A stretch of DNA of 22,335 nt from a virus, in the IMG/VR virus record IMGVR_UViG_3300012988_000174, positions 1 through 22,335 of that record, one strand, 5' to 3'. Numbering within the stretch: position 1 is the stretch's first letter; every line of letters begins with the position of its first letter. Under the pieces are notes generated by a model. The model was not told where the DNA came from. It searched no databases and saw only the letters and a program-made list of their open reading frames with translations. Positions 7,569 through 22,248 of this stretch are shown here, piece after piece. The translations under genes and the position numbers were made by a program.

Positions 7569-8797
7569 GGGTCGTATCTCCTCATGGACTTGGACATAGC
7601 TGTCCGGTCACAGATGACAATGACATTGGTCTTGGCTCTTGTGATTGCTGTGTAGAAGTTCCTCCTATTCAACATGCGGGGTGATCGCTGTGACATGCAG
7701 TATATAATCGTGTCGAACTCTGACCCCTGTGCCTTATGTGTAGTGATCGCGTAACCTAGCTCGATCTTCTTCCGTGGATCGTAGTTAATGATCGATCCAT
7801 GGTACGCCGAATACGCCTGAATAAACGGCGGAACGAGTATGGTTCTTTCATCTGTCGATATCTGGAGCGAACCATCCTCCGAGTTGACCCAATCGATATA
7901 CCCAATCTCGCCATTAAAGAGGCGAAGCTGATAATCATTCTGGGTCCATAGGAATTTGTCGCCGCCCTTGAGAGCAATGGGAGGATCATCTTTTTTTGTA
8001 AGTTTCGATTTACGATCAACTCTAAGGATATCTCCCTTCGGATTAAACCTGACTTGGACGGCAGGATTGACCCGGTTTGTCCCATAGTTACCATTACGAG
8101 TTGGCATGATAATCTGACACGATGTTTGCGTAACAATCTCGTCAAGCATTGAGATAAGCGCGGACACTGGATTAGGCGAGTATACGATCTCGAACCGATG
8201 ATTGCGGAGAGGGATACGGCCATTCTTTATCCTTTCAGCGTTCATGACTATCTCATCGTTACTCCGCCAACAGTGGAGCAACTCTTTCTTGGTCTTAGTT
8301 CTGAGCAAGTCGGCAAACGGCGTGCCTGTGTCCACCGGAGGCAACTGATAGTTGTCACCGAAGAACCTGATACTTCCATTGGGAGGGAGAGCTTCCATGA
8401 GTTGCTGATACAGTTCCTCGGATATCATGGACGACTCGTCTACATACACAATGCGCTGGAACAACGGACGTGAACGGTTGCGCCTCGGTTCAGGAGGAAG
8501 TGGATCACCGTTCGCGTCCTCGTCGTCAGGCTGAGGAAACTCTAACAACTTGTGGATGGTCGTGGCCTTGATGCCGGTTAGTTCTTGGATGCGCTTAGCG
8601 GCTCGGCCAGTAGGGGCACAGAGTACAACCTTGTCCCTACCCATTACTTTCATTGTTTCGTCGAAGGCACGTCCTAACACGCTGGTCTTGCCCGTACCTG
8701 CTCGCCCGGTAACGGAGAGGATGCGATGATCTCTATCGAGACACATATCAACCGCTTCTTCCTGCTCGTTAGACAGGGTTATGTCTTTCCTACTCAA
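7565..8797 (-). CDS. RecD/Dda-like SF1B DNA helicase
   Basis: 410-aa ATP-dependent helicase expected to unwind DNA 5'-3' in replication or recombination. All main SF1 motifs are visible: Walker A GRAGTGKT (31-38), motif Ia APTGRAA (61-67), Walker B/motif II VDESSM (119-124), motif III GDNYQLPPV (147-155), and the RecD-like C-terminal motifs TTHKAQGSEFD (352-362) and YTAITRAK (382-389). The length fits compact phage RecD-like or Dda-like enzymes. The start is TTG at 8797, supported by GGGGAG seven bases upstream. An ATG start would cut into the conserved region. It follows the 87-aa gene by a few bases and is coupled downstream through ATGA to the zinc ribbon. Family assignment is firm; its precise partner is unknown. 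Confidence 0.94.
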   Translation of the reverse strand: MSRKDITLSNEQEEAVDMCLDRDHRILSVTGRAGTGKTSVLGRAFDETMKVMGRDKVVLCAPTGRAAKRIQELTGIKATTIHKLLEFPQPDDEDANGDPLPPEPRRNRSRPLFQRIVYVDESSMISEELYQQLMEALPPNGSIRFFGDNYQLPPVDTGTPFADLLRTKTKKELLHCWRSNDEIVMNAERIKNGRIPLRNHRFEIVYSPNPVSALISMLDEIVTQTSCQIIMPTRNGNYGTNRVNPAVQVRFNPKGDILRVDRKSKLTKKDDPPIALKGGDKFLWTQNDYQLRLFNGEIGYIDWVNSEDGSLQISTDERTILVPPFIQAYSAYHGSIINYDPRKKIELGYAITTHKAQGSEFDTIIYCMSQRSPRMLNRRNFYTAITRAKTNVIVICDRTAMSKSMRRYDP

Positions 8798-9053
8798 TTA
8801 AAGTCTCCCCTTTGGACAAGTCCACATGCTCGTTTTGGACATACTCAATCTTGACGCCGAGTTCTTCCATAACTCGCTCGGCGCCCTTGATTAGTAGGAT
8901 GCGCATGAAAGCCGACTTTGACAATCCCATAGCCTCAGCGGCCACAGTGATCTTCTGCATGTCGTTCCCAGTCATGCGCACCATCTGGTTGCCAGACCCT
9001 GCGATTGGGTGCGGTGGCGCGAACGATATAGTTATTAGATTAATCTCTGGCAT
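8790..9053 (-). CDS. Ribbon-helix-helix-like small protein (87 aa)
   Basis: ATG at 9053 with GGAG/AAGG upstream. Residues 23-64 (NQMVRMTGNDMQKITVAAEAM followed by GLSKSAFMRILLIKGAERVM) resemble a MetJ/Arc-type fold: a short strand, then helix - 'GLSKSAF' turn - helix, a common pattern in CopG-like regulators. It is embedded between the ssDNA-binding-like gene and the helicase, so it could instead be an accessory replication protein. RHH proteins bind short palindromes as dimers, which makes it one candidate binder of the palindrome found throughout the window; that link is speculation. A longer in-frame start exists at 9107 but would place palindrome copy 6 in the coding sequence and has no ribosome-binding site. 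Confidence 0.75.
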   Translation of the reverse strand: MPEINLITISFAPPHPIAGSGNQMVRMTGNDMQKITVAAEAMGLSKSAFMRILLIKGAERVMEELGVKIEYVQNEHVDLSKGETLIE

Positions 9054-9079
9054 CACCTTACTCCGGTGTGAGTGGGGAC

Positions 9080-9094
9080 TGTGTGTGACACACA
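9080..9094. repeat. Palindrome copy 6 (8790-9053 gene leader)
   Basis: TGTGTGTGACACACA between the stop of the ssDNA-binding-like gene (9108) and the ATG at 9053, 26-28 nt upstream of that start. Confidence 0.85.
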
Positions 9095-9107
9095 GCCCCC
9101 TTCTCAA

Positions 9108-12824: not shown

Positions 12825-13058
12825 CTACTCCGGGATCGCTACCCAGTCCGTAGCGAGCAAGTCCGTTTGGGACGCCAGCCACGGCACGAGATCGCCTTTG
12901 ACAGTGCTCATGTAGATATATGGCAGCGTCATCTTCGAGTGTTCATCAGGCATCTGGAGTTCCAGCCACATGCCCTTGCCGTTCCAACCTTCACGGCACA
13001 CCTTGACGCCGTTACGCATTGCGTCGATTGCCTCACCGATATCCATCTTATGCTCCAT
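12825..13058 (-). CDS. tad2: DUF2829/Tad2-like anti-Thoeris candidate
   Basis: 77 aa. The family signature is clear: an N-terminal 'DIGEAIDAMRNGVKVCREGWNGKGMWLEL' type segment (the GWNGKGM block near residues 24-30) and a C-terminal PYIYMSTVKGDLVPWLASQ followed by TDLLATDW. DUF2829 proteins include Tad2, which sequesters the signalling nucleotide made by the bacterial Thoeris defence and so blocks ThsA activation. The compact length and the conserved aromatic/Gly positions fit. The ATG at 13058 overlaps the preceding stop (TAATG) with AGGGG upstream; palindrome copy 9 lies 15-17 nt further upstream. Family membership is strong; anti-Thoeris activity of this member is inferred. Confidence 0.85.
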   Translation of the reverse strand: MEHKMDIGEAIDAMRNGVKVCREGWNGKGMWLELQMPDEHSKMTLPYIYMSTVKGDLVPWLASQTDLLATDWVAIPE

Positions 13059-13195
13059 TACGTTTCCCCTTCTGTGTGTGTCACACATGGATGCAGTTTC
13101 ATTAGCTCTGTAATCGTTAGTCCTACCTCTGTCTCAGGTAGCACATGCTCTTGCAGAACCCTTAGTTTCCTTGCCTCGACTTGGTAGTCGAACAT
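13058..13195 (-). CDS. Short hypothetical protein (45 aa)
   Basis: Starts MFDYQVEARKLRVLQEHVLP and continues with a likely helix (GLTITELMKLH). ATG 13195 has only a weak GGAA upstream, but the stop (13058-13060) overlaps the Tad2-like start as TAATG, a junction used repeatedly in this block. Palindrome copy 9 is read through near its 3' end as Cys-Val-Thr-His. The 67 bases between it and the preceding stop hold no other signal. No family recognised. Confidence 0.5.
   Translation of the reverse strand: MFDYQVEARKLRVLQEHVLPETEVGLTITELMKLHPCVTHTEGET
13073..13087. repeat. Palindrome copy 9 (Tad2-like gene leader)
   Basis: TGTGTGTGTCACACA, 15-17 nt upstream of the Tad2-like ATG and just 5' of its AGGGG; also inside the short 45-aa gene. 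Confidence 0.85.
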
Positions 13196-15441: not shown

Positions 15442-15690
15442 TTAGCGGTTGCGGACAAACTTGGACTTGTATCCAAGCGAGTGAACGACTGCCATAACGG
15501 TAGCATACTGCGGCCGACGGGTTGTCCCCTCGAACCAGTTGTACAGGGTAGAGACGCTGACGCCAGACGCTGCACTAACCTGAGCATATGACTGCCCGCT
15601 ATCCTGTACAAGTGTACGAGTCGCATCGATCACAGGGTCTTTATCCTTGAACGAGTACGACTTGTAAAGCGATAATGATCCCTTGGACAT
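15442..15690 (-). CDS. HTH (XRE-like) DNA-binding regulator (82 aa)
   Basis: Residues 34-56 form a helix-turn-helix: SYAQVSAASGVSVSTLYNWF, with the 'GVS-S-L-NW' pattern common in Cro/XRE-type regulators, followed by GTTRRPQYATVMAVVHSLGY, the usual C-terminal helices. ATG 15690 overlaps the preceding stop (TAATG), so it is translated with the 67-aa gene, from an operon that starts at the 16.37-kb promoter. That promoter carries an operator-like palindrome over its -10, so autoregulation is plausible. The DNA-binding assignment is well supported; its target is inferred. Confidence 0.85.
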   Translation of the reverse strand: MSKGSLSLYKSYSFKDKDPVIDATRTLVQDSGQSYAQVSAASGVSVSTLYNWFEGTTRRPQYATVMAVVHSLGYKSKFVRNR

Positions 15691-15893
15691 TAAGCCATCT
15701 CCGGCATGTTGTTGACGACACGCTGGACAGCCCGAACGCAATCTTCCTCGGAACCGTAAAGCTTCGTACCTTCGTTGTTGAGGTAAACGCGGAACGACTT
15801 ATTGTCCCAGCGTTCGATTGTGTAGAAGCCAATCTTGGTCACATAAGTGCGCAAGACTTTCTTCTCTCGCCACCAGCGAAGAGCATGTGACAT
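15690..15893 (-). CDS. Hypothetical protein (67 aa)
   Basis: ATG 15893 overlaps the preceding stop as TAATG and the gene ends in another TAATG overlap, so it sits in a three-gene coupled string. The product is basic and beta-rich (MSHALRWWREKKVLRTYVTK, YTIERWDNKSFRVYLNNEGT) with a C-terminal helix containing DCVRAVQRVVNN. It could be a small nucleic-acid-binding protein; no family recognised. Confidence 0.7.
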   Translation of the reverse strand: MSHALRWWREKKVLRTYVTKIGFYTIERWDNKSFRVYLNNEGTKLYGSEEDCVRAVQRVVNNMPEMA

Positions 15894-16396: not shown

Positions 16397-16645
16397 CTAT
16401 TTTATGTCTTCATCCTTCAAAACTGGCTCATATCCACGCAATTTGAGCCATTCTTGGGACTGTAACTTGAAACTACGGGGCAAAGTGGACACCGTAATCG
16501 TCTTATGCAGAAGCACGGCCATGGCTGTGTTGCTTTTTGGTACGGGCATTCTTCTTTCTTCCATGAACTTTCTTAGTCTTTGTATGTCTCCTGTCCTTAG
16601 CACTTGGTTTCGGTTTCGTATGAAGTCGCTTAGTGTCTCTCTCAT
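16397..16645 (-). CDS. Hypothetical protein (82 aa), overlapping
   Basis: The protein reads like a real product: basic helical N-terminus (DFIRNRNQVLRTGDIQRLRK), then NTAMAVLLHKTITVSTLPRS and FKLQSQEWLKLRGYEP. It overlaps the 133-aa gene by 143 bp in a different frame. ATG 16645 has only a weak AGCAG upstream; an orphan AGGAG-type sequence (GGACAGGAGA, - strand of 16587-16596) lies inside the gene but has no start codon at good spacing. It may be an intact gene, or the 3' half of an older gene displaced by a frameshift from the 133-aa frame. The stop is 15 bases upstream of the 16.37-kb promoter. Confidence 0.5.
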   Translation of the reverse strand: MRETLSDFIRNRNQVLRTGDIQRLRKFMEERRMPVPKSNTAMAVLLHKTITVSTLPRSFKLQSQEWLKLRGYEPVLKDEDIK

Positions 16646-16904
16646 CTGCTGGCCTATTCACTTTCTCTACAGTGTTGCCTGCGGGATATCGTGTGACACA
16701 CACAACCATCCCATTACGATGCACATCAATGTATGTGCCACACACACGCTCTAGATCATAAGACACCCAGATGCGGCAAAGCTTAGGACGCTTCACCACC
16801 TCTATCAATGGCATCTGAGATGTAAGATTGTCGAGCGCGACGAAATTAGTCAGCCGGTTCTGTTCGACTGTAGGCTGCTTTCGGAACCTCGATGGTTGGC
16901 GCAT
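16503..16904 (-). CDS. Hypothetical protein (133 aa) with extremely basic tail
   Basis: ATG 16904 with AGGAGA at ideal spacing, 59 bp inside the preceding gene. Residues 1-85 appear folded (FVALDNLTSQMPLIEVVKRP, LCRIWVSYDLERVCGTYIDV, MVVCVTRYPAGNTVEKVNRP). From about residue 92 the tail is Lys/Arg/His-rich (KPKPSAKDRRHTKTKKVHGR, KKNARTKKQHSHGRASA), and it coincides with the 143-bp overlap with the 82-aa gene, so it may be a frame artefact of a frameshift or a genuine basic nucleic-acid-binding tail. Palindrome copy 13 encodes Val-Cys-Val-Thr inside it. No family recognised. Confidence 0.65.
   Translation of the reverse strand: MRQPSRFRKQPTVEQNRLTNFVALDNLTSQMPLIEVVKRPKLCRIWVSYDLERVCGTYIDVHRNGMVVCVTRYPAGNTVEKVNRPADERDTKRLHTKPKPSAKDRRHTKTKKVHGRKKNARTKKQHSHGRASA
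16691..16703. repeat. Palindrome copy 13 (inside 133-aa gene)
   Basis: GTGTGACACACAC, 12 of 13 core bases with the preceding C. A further degenerate match, TGTATGTGCCACACA (16730-16744, 13 of 15), lies about 27 bp away in the same gene. Confidence 0.5.
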
Positions 16905-20520: not shown

Positions 20521-20650
20521 GTTTATCCCCTAAGGATACCAACGATGTGAAACAGCCCAGAAAGAGGGAACCGGGGAACCCCGAAGAGGCGACGCCCGAA
20601 ACCGTTTCCGTGCTCCCTTTGTATAGATTGCTGCGAACCGTGCAAGCTTT

Positions 20651-20667
20651 TTGTGTGTGACACACAA
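20651..20667. repeat. Palindrome copy 19 (upstream of 54-aa gene)
   Basis: TTGTGTGTGACACACAA, perfect 17-bp palindrome around G20659, 131 nt upstream of the 54-aa ATG; no convincing promoter is seen nearby. Confidence 0.88.
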
Positions 20668-20857
20668 CGTTTTTCGATCACGGATTGTTACATTGAAACG
20701 GTTGCGGTTTCGGATTATCGGATTGCGCGCGGAACAAACCACAACCTTAACTAACCTTTATGCGCCGAAAGGCGCGGTCGAAACCCCTTCAATGTGACAC
20801 AATGTCGCACCTCCCAAATAAACCTGTTGACCAATCCCCAAATCTATGAACGCGCAA

Positions 20858-20872
20858 TGTGTGTTTCACACA
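20858..20872. repeat. Palindrome copy 20, TTT-centre variant
   Basis: TGTGTG-TTT-CACACA, intact arms with an altered centre, in the gene-poor region. A shorter degenerate piece, TGTGACACA, lies near 20793. Confidence 0.7.
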
Positions 20873-21159
20873 ATGGGTTTTTGATCCTAACAACCTATGG
20901 ATGGTCGCCCGTGTGTGTGCGCGCGTGTTCGCGATCACAATTTCCCCAACTTGTCAAATAGCTGAATTTCCGAAATTGGAGTGGGTGTGTCAAATCAGGT
21001 ACACCCTAAGGTTGTATGCATATTTGCATATCAGCTAGCTATGCGCTACACGCATGCCCCGTATCCCCCCCTATTTCAAAAATGTAACAATTCGTGATTT
21101 GACTTTTGCGGGGGTCCCGAAGGGGGGGGCCTACGCGACATCTTAGCGTTGTTTTTGAT

Positions 21160-21200
21160 GATTTTAGTGTGATTTAGTGTGATTTTGTGTGATTTTGTGT
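21160..21200 (+). repeat. Tandem AT-rich iteron-like repeats
   Basis: Four consecutive units: GATTTTAGTGT (21160-21170), GATTTAGTGT (21171-21180), GATTTTGTGT (21181-21190) and GATTTTGTGT (21191-21200). They lead into GTTTTACACG and an inverted repeat GCTCA-TTTT-TGAGC (21218-21231), with CATTTTTGAG repeated. Typical of iterons or DNA-unwinding elements. Confidence 0.75.
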
Positions 21201-21259
21201 GTTTTACACGCGATTTAGCTCATTTTTGAGCATTTTTGAGCATATTTAACTCAATTTCG

Positions 21260-21308
21260 CTATATATACTGAGTCATTCGCGACGCAAGCGTCTATATAT
21301 ACTGAGTC
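21260..21308 (+). repeat. 16-bp direct repeat pair flanking an inverted repeat
   Basis: CTATATATACTGAGTC at 21260-21275 and again at 21293-21308, 33 bp start to start. Between them GACGC-AA-GCGTC forms a 5-bp inverted repeat. Palindrome copy 21 starts two bases after the second unit. Confidence 0.8.
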
Positions 21309-21310
21309 GA

Positions 21311-21325
21311 TGTGTGTGACACACA
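21311..21325. repeat. Palindrome copy 21 (ahead of RNA promoter)
   Basis: TGTGTGTGACACACA, 7-bp arms around G21318, between the 16-bp direct repeats and the + promoter (66 bp upstream of its -35). Confidence 0.88.
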
Positions 21326-21390
21326 AGATTATGCACCATGGGGGTGTGACAATATGACGCAGTTTAAATGCGATTGAATTGAAAAAAGGG

Positions 21391-21419
21391 TTGACAACCG
21401 CGCCTACGGCGATTATAAT
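21391..21419 (+). promoter_or_regulatory. Fully consensus sigma70 promoter
   Basis: TTGACA (21391-21396), 17-bp spacer, TATAAT (21414-21419): a perfect match in both boxes. It points into a 79-nt segment that ends in a terminator and has no convincing protein gene. Confidence 0.92.
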
Positions 21420-21425
21420 GCTTTC

Positions 21426-21504
21426 AAATGATCGTTAAAAGGCTCTGGGCCTTAGATCAATGAGAAAACCCCCTCAGATGTAATGTCTGGGGGGGTTTAT
21501 CTTT
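21426..21504 (+). ncRNA. Candidate small RNA (~79 nt) ending in a terminator
   Basis: Expected start near 21426, seven bases after the -10 box. The transcript would carry a small hairpin AAGGC-TCTGG-GCCTT (about 21439-21453) enclosed by GATC/GATC, then the terminator hairpin 21466-21498 and TATCTTT. Size and layout resemble phage regulators such as the lambda oop RNA, but no family is recognised. An 11-codon ATG frame (21428-21463, MIVKRLWALDQ) begins 2 nt from the predicted start and could be a leaderless peptide; I consider this less likely than a non-coding RNA. Confidence 0.7.
21466..21504. terminator. Bidirectional terminator
   Basis: A 13-bp stem with one T-G wobble: 21466-21478 (AAACCCCCTCAGA) with 21486-21498 (TCTGGGGGGGTTT), loop 7 nt. 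The + side is followed by ATCTTT; the - side by TTTCTCATT after the A-T pairs. It can end both the candidate small RNA and the - transcript of the 149-aa gene. Confidence 0.88.
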
Positions 21505-21558: not shown

Positions 21559-22008
21559 CTATATAGTCTTATTCTTCTTTTGGACTGCTCGCTTTTTATC
21601 AGTTCGATATTGAACGAACTTAGCAGCGTTCTTTTTAATCTTCTCAGCAATCTTCTTTGGGTTCTGTCTACGCTCAGTCATGCGTTCAGCTATCAATGGA
21701 TATTCAGTTAGGTTATTAACGTCATATAACCTTACAGCCTCATCCAAAGCGGCTTGGGTTATTTTAGGAGCGCGGTCATCCCTGAATTGTAATATGTTCC
21801 TTTCCGTCGCGATTGTACTAGGGACTCCTATATAACCACGTTCAACATTAACCGCTACAAGGCTTTTAGGCAGCCATGCATATCCTGCGGTTTCACTGTC
21901 TGCAAACTCAACCTTAATCCCCTTATCAGTCTCATTCAATATCTTCGTGAATTTCATATAGATCATGTTGAATAGTTTTAGATCACTGCCGTATATCCTG
22001 TATGGCAT
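21559..22008 (-). CDS. Hypothetical protein with basic C-terminus (149 aa)
   Basis: Start ATG at 22008 with GGAGG seven bases upstream; an ATG at 22020 and a start at 22035 are alternatives without a better site. The body is mixed alpha/beta (MPYRIYGSDLKLFNMIYMKF, IKVEFADSETAGYAWLPKSL, NVERGYIGVPSTIATERNIL). The C-terminal 40 residues are Lys-rich (NPKKIAEKIKKNAAKFVQYR, DKKRAVQKKNK), suggesting nucleic-acid or membrane-surface binding. It is the first - gene from the divergent promoter region and thus probably an early gene. No family recognised. Confidence 0.75.
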   Translation of the reverse strand: MPYRIYGSDLKLFNMIYMKFTKILNETDKGIKVEFADSETAGYAWLPKSLVAVNVERGYIGVPSTIATERNILQFRDDRAPKITQAALDEAVRLYDVNNLTEYPLIAERMTERRQNPKKIAEKIKKNAAKFVQYRTDKKRAVQKKNKTI

Positions 22009-22023
22009 GTTCGCCTCCATACT

Positions 22024-22038
22024 TGTGTGTGTCACACA
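22024..22038. repeat. Palindrome copy 22 (149-aa gene leader)
   Basis: TGTGTGTGTCACACA, about 15-17 nt upstream of the ATG at 22008 and 68 bp downstream of the -10 at 22107. Confidence 0.88.
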
Positions 22039-22135: not shown

Positions 22136-22192
22136 GCATTATTTAACTGGGTTCCATGCCTGCGACGATATGTCGCACCCTGTGACAGGCTA

Positions 22193-22217: not shown

Positions 22218-22248
22218 TTGACACGGGTGTAGAATATGCTATTATAAT
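22218..22248 (+). promoter_or_regulatory. Rightward promoter reading out of the window
   Basis: -35 TTGACA (22218-22223) and TATAAT (22243-22248) with 19-bp spacing; TATTAT (22240-22245) gives 16 bp. The spacer contains ATATGCTAT, resembling half of the palindrome at the 16.37-kb promoter. The regulated gene is beyond the window; AGGAAGG after copy 24 may be its ribosome-binding site. Confidence 0.75.

Follow-up and report, generated by a model that had tools for sequence, protein, structure and literature searches.

The put RNAs of phage HK022 are structured leader RNAs near a phage promoter. The OOP RNA of phage lambda is 77 nt long and has an antisense role on cII (PMC12197685). In the AlpA system the binding element sits between −35 and −10, a sequence resembling a −10 element covers −1 to +5, and an intrinsic terminator follows (PMC9371919). 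Q proteins require the same kinds of element as AlpA (PMC9371919; PMC7171158), and the known Q families are unrelated to one another (PMC7171158).

The locus described here was found in a 22,335-base stretch of DNA (the window), which is a complete virus record. It resembled the OOP unit of lambda (promoter pO) in its similar length, its own promoter and terminator, its place beside an origin-like region and its convergent gene, but differed from that antisense RNA of cII in that the opposing gene was not conserved, the hairpin covaried and the promoter contained an invariant spacer motif. With lambda pR′-tR′ and AlpA/PalpB-tB it shared an element between −35 and −10, a −10-like RNA start, a short leader, an intrinsic terminator and the strand of the downstream genes; unlike in those systems, the late operon had its own promoter, no antiterminator was found among the early proteins scanned, and the unit had two additional features, the covarying hairpin and an inverted second motif copy. 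Compared with the general description of the HK022 put RNAs, it had a single bulged hairpin before a terminator.

Organisation and genome setting of the unit

As shown in Table 1, a full-consensus promoter was followed by a short predicted transcript and an intrinsic terminator. It was the sole 12/12 promoter with 16–18-bp spacing in the window, and 0.0027 such sites (17-bp spacing, both strands counted) were expected per dinucleotide-shuffled window. The terminator stem (~21465–21498) was flanked by T-rich tails on the + strand (TTTATCTTT) and the − strand (TTTTCTCATT), and the 85-nt fold of −35.4 kcal/mol (z = −4.4) was equalled by none of 200 shuffles. The first-pass annotation had described this promoter, a strong bidirectional terminator hairpin and a 79-nt product with no convincing gene in between. 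Its promoter positions and spacing and the T-rich tails on both strands were confirmed, the length held as a prediction, and no ORF was conserved among 12 members of the family (see below). A unit with its own promoter and terminator and without a conserved ORF is what a phage small RNA would be expected to have. A second hairpin ahead of the terminator, absent from that annotation, was the part found conserved.

Table 1. Features of the unit and its surroundings, with positions in the window
Feature	Position	Strand	Remarks
Consensus promoter TTGACA-17-TATAAT	21391–21419	+	12/12; conserved in all members
−35 TTGACA	21391–21396	+	17-bp spacer to −10
−10 TATAAT	21414–21419	+	
Spacer motif CGCGCCTACGGCG	21399–21411	+	between −35 and −10; family CGCGCCTN(N)CGGCG
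−10-like hexamer AATGAT	21427–21432	+	~+2 to +7; possible sigma-dependent pause
Predicted 79-nt RNA	21426–21504	+	start inferred from −10, end from terminator
Bulged hairpin	21429–21459	+	covariation; found by covariance model R1
P1	21429–21433/21455–21459	+	
5′ bulge	21434–21438	+	
P2	21439–21443/21449–21453	+	
Loop UCUGG	21444–21448	+	
Intrinsic terminator	21465–21504	+	T-rich on both strands; common to convergent gene
Convergent 158-aa ORF	21559–22035	−	no Pfam/PHROG match; would end at common terminator; outside conserved unit
Late-operon promoter	22218–22248	+	separate, near-consensus; equivalents (10–12/12) before first late gene in relatives tested
Inverted second motif copy CGCGCCTTTCGGCG	20763–20776	−	~620 bp upstream of promoter; no good promoter
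Palindrome TGTGTGTGACACACA	21311–21325	.	upstream of promoter
TGTGTGWCACACA (example sites)	4596, 6495, 9082, 13075, 14537, 17276, 19527, 20654, 21313, 22026, 22195, 22282		
Inverted TGTAACAATTCGTGA elements	20677–20694, 21081–21098		
GTGTGATTTA tandem repeats	21160–21206		
CTATATATACTGAGTC direct repeats	21260, 21292		

The annotation had also offered an 11-codon frame as an alternative product. This frame does exist in the window phage, its ATG lying 2 nt past the expected start, but it was not conserved: near-5′ starts gave 1–52 codons in ten members, and two members had no start codon. Selection acted on the hairpin rather than on a reading frame, and a peptide product is barely credible.

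The genes from ~4.6 to 20.7 kb pointed leftwards and included a DNA polymerase, a helicase, a Sak4-like protein and an exonuclease. An 87-aa protein of this stretch (12825–13088, −), with relatives in G004 and G020, matched PF11195 (Tad2-like, E 5.9e-25), one of the Thoeris anti-defence families. A near-identical contig (G001) ran beyond the right end of the window, and its rightward late genes started just past 22335. The unit therefore separates the early genes from the late ones, lying on the late strand and convergent with the 158-aa ORF.

This convergent layout, with a bidirectional terminator in common, raised the reading of an OOP-like antisense RNA against the 158-aa mRNA. The overlap, however, was confined to the 3′ UTR and terminator, and the ORF was restricted to the window and G001, being missing from all other phages with the RNA. 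An antisense RNA of the OOP type would pair with the 3′ part of an opposing regulator gene that is itself conserved, and the 158-aa ORF was not. Target prediction, proposed by the first-pass annotation, was run as a simple duplex scan against gene starts in eight phages and gave no shared mRNA target, which is a weak argument because accessibility was ignored. Thus, of the comparison with lambda oop made in that annotation, the anatomy stood (a short RNA with its own promoter and terminator, an origin-like neighbour and a convergent gene), but the antisense action did not, since the ORF was absent from relatives and no conserved mRNA target was found. We consider antisense control of the 158-aa mRNA highly improbable.

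Distribution among relatives

About 80 relatives were collected from viral contigs by a polymerase search and a polymerase-profile search. DNA and promoter searches of 30 of them showed that six close relatives possessed the unit and its conserved spacer. A spacer-motif scan of all viral contigs gave 11 contigs, every one a member, and a looser pattern scan added L233 and L241; most other matches to the loose pattern were coding sequence, and only these two were accepted. After near-duplicates were removed, 12 distinct members from independent contigs remained (the window, G008, G010, G011, G012, G013, G033, L145, L148, L149, L233 and L241). Of the close relatives, defined by a polymerase identity of at least 74%, all those with near-complete contigs had the unit. 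Among ~40 more distant records (polymerase identity below ~62%), no match to the RNA model was obtained, and a promoter-plus-terminator scan at the same junction of such distant relatives detected no equivalent unit.

Searching isolated phages with the window unit gave no DNA match, and searching them with the units of two relatives gave only short, weak, partial matches; a plasmid search gave no match. Fifteen genome_contigs matches to the spacer pattern were rejected as chance because they had neither a TTGACA in place upstream nor a hairpin, and a 19-base match in G004 was merely a similar terminator tail. Judged from these sequences, the unit is a conserved feature of a single clade of tailed phages, all uncultivated, with genomes of ~40–46 kb.

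Where flanks were mapped, the unit was always on the late strand, between the early block and the late operon and 0.95–1.5 kb before the first late gene; the genes lying between unit and late operon varied. A terminator-like hairpin was present downstream in the members, but it was weak, with poorer T-tails, in G013, L145 and L148. These three members also had an additional small hairpin (CGCACTGGTGCG-like, with UGG in the loop) between the bulged hairpin and the terminator, and in G013 an ORF with a ribosome-binding site followed immediately after the terminator.

Covariation in the bulged hairpin

A covariance search among relatives, suggested by the first-pass annotation, was carried out and revealed a covarying hairpin in the 12 members. 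The sequence of P1 varied widely while its pairing was kept, and a 5′ bulge of 2–8 nt, usually A/T-rich, preceded the P2 stem. The loop was NNUGG in 11 of 12 members, the exception being L145 (AUUCG). In ten hand-aligned members, 98.1% of cells paired and both-side changes were found at 8 of 11 pairs, in an alignment made to fit the structure. In twelve model-aligned members, which included two left out when model R1 was built, 96.9% of cells were paired, with 31 double-change cells and both-side changes again at 8 of 11 pairs, figures that are uncorrected for kinship. These two members scored 23.5 and 22.8 bits with R1.

The covariation score was 0.668, against 0.206 (sd 0.036) in shuffles, none of 500 reaching it, and was at most 0.11 (maximum 0.106) with slid partners. 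The number of pairs changed on both sides, taken alone, was less discriminating, 27 of 500 shuffles attaining the observed 8, whereas none did so by the other measures. Four G-U cells against one A-C cell were counted in the aligned hairpin, indicating that the + strand was favoured as the RNA. The hairpin was kept by compensating changes, and therefore selection acts on RNA shape, a further property looked for in a phage small RNA unit. Rfam 15 gave no match at the gathering threshold, and the best permissive matches were far under family cut-offs, none being credible. We are highly confident that this is a genuine unit, both conserved and structured, and its RNA would appear to represent a new phage regulatory RNA family.

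The earlier claim of a short non-coding RNA running from promoter to terminator was thus well supported, the relatives making the candidate a conserved unit with a covarying hairpin; it can be read either as a free RNA or as the default product of an antitermination leader.

DNA motifs and possible control of the unit

The spacer motif CGCGCCTN(N)CGGCG was found in 12 of 12 members while the RNA and flanks diverged, indicating that it is likely a protein-binding site. An inverted copy (GCGCC-N3-5-GGCGCGG) lay 422–629 bp upstream in 10 of 10 testable members, G008 and G033 being cut off. A GTGTG/CACAC palindrome was located at −47 to −80 from the −35 sequence in all 12. At the predicted RNA start, every one of the 12 members showed the pattern xANNNT (3.8 on average in shuffles; none of 5000 gave 12), in a test where the offset range was picked after inspection and the members are related.

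Other repeats were seen around the control region. A palindrome, TGTGTGWCACACA, occupied many gene junctions (~25 window sites; 53 overlapping matches with at most 2 mismatches, 0.67 expected), and related G004 contained TGTGTGACTCACACA versions, in which matching outer arms differed from copy to copy. These sites resemble a set of operators or “stoperators” spread over the genome. A second dyad type, TGCGACANNATGTCGCA-like, had three copies near the control region (20793–20811, 21345–21363 and 22161–22179) and was also found upstream of the unit in G008, G033, G010, L233 and L241.

The stretch from 20650 to 21390 was non-coding and repeat-rich, with a motif copy at each boundary, and is a candidate replication origin. 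Transcription from the promoter could accordingly be supposed to activate or prime replication in this adjoining region; the 500–630 bp between the motif copies were non-coding and repeat-rich, with conserved TGTAACAATTCGTGA elements in several members. But the transcript heads out of the region, the covarying hairpin is left unexplained and the origin is itself only a candidate, and we regard an origin-linked transcript as improbable.

The anatomy of the unit also suited a Q/AlpA-type control region, like lambda pR′-tR′ or Pseudomonas PalpB-tB, in which the 79-nt RNA would be the default product made without antiterminator. Bound at the spacer motif, the antiterminator would be loaded onto polymerase during its pause at the −10-like sequence and take it past the terminator in the direction of the late genes. 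In agreement with this, all 12 members had a conserved element between −35 and −10, to which a protein presumably binds, a −10-like sequence near the start of the predicted transcript (xANNNT at the equivalent offset) and a terminator, and the late operon lay downstream on the same strand at the distances given above. Against it, the late operon had its own promoter, matching consensus at 10–12 of 12 positions at −156 to −276 in 10 of 10 phages tested, which argues against dependence on readthrough, though readthrough may also occur, and opposing ORFs lay between unit and late operon in several phages. Nor does the mechanism predict a covarying leader hairpin or the promoterless inverted copy of the motif ~0.5 kb upstream. 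No Q-like protein was detected among the early proteins scanned, a weak argument because Q families are mutually unrelated. We consider an antitermination leader of this type the main alternative, possible but doubtful.

In the late leader, immediately beyond the right end of the window (L007), a long hairpin whose apical loop, (T)TTCCTGTC, is conserved was observed after the late promoter and ahead of the ribosome-binding site of the first late gene; it occupied the same place in G008, G010, G011, G013, G033, L149, L233 and L241. It is possibly a second RNA element controlling the late operon.

A combined, previously undescribed element may also be imagined, comprising a spacer loading site for an antiterminator or regulator, a distal inverted site and a selected bulged leader hairpin, in which the DNA site and the shape of the nascent RNA would jointly determine whether transcription stops after 80 nt or continues in the direction of the late genes. 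We rate this as rather unlikely.

The explanation we prefer, and think somewhat probable, is a stand-alone unit under operator control for a small non-coding RNA that is recognised by its structure. Counted in its favour were the 12 members, the late-strand place at the junction even where the 158-aa neighbour was missing, the covarying hairpin, the spacer motif with its inverted copy, the lack of a conserved ORF and the lack of an Rfam match; counted against it were an anatomy that also suits a Q/AlpA leader, the weak T-tails in G013, L145 and L148, the ORF just behind the terminator of G013, the AUUCG loop of L145 and the absence of the unit below ~62% polymerase identity. Host RNA polymerase would start at ~21426 from the consensus promoter and stop ~80 nt on at the intrinsic terminator. 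Anatomically this would match other small RNAs that phages produce next to an origin or switch region, such as lambda OOP. A phage DNA-binding protein may control the promoter via the motif between −35 and −10, with the inverted copy ~0.5 kb upstream probably taking part, and the RNA would thereby be made at a set time. Clade-specific early proteins that are candidate regulators include a ribbon-helix-helix-like protein (8790–9107, weak Pfam matches), an HTH protein (15442–15741) and a 133-aa basic protein (16503–16904). Because the stems change freely while fold, bulge and loop persist, the free RNA would be recognised by its structure and not act as antisense via its stems, a protein being the simplest partner to suppose.

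Beyond the model systems, few phages have structured small RNAs that are backed by comparative evidence. The element described here is found in twelve diverse members, always with a covarying fold and an invariant motif in its promoter spacer, has a distal partner site for that motif and keeps its place where early and late genes meet. For a phage group that only metagenomes have revealed, it offers defined, testable predictions on the RNA, on the protein that would partner it and on when early expression gives way to late.
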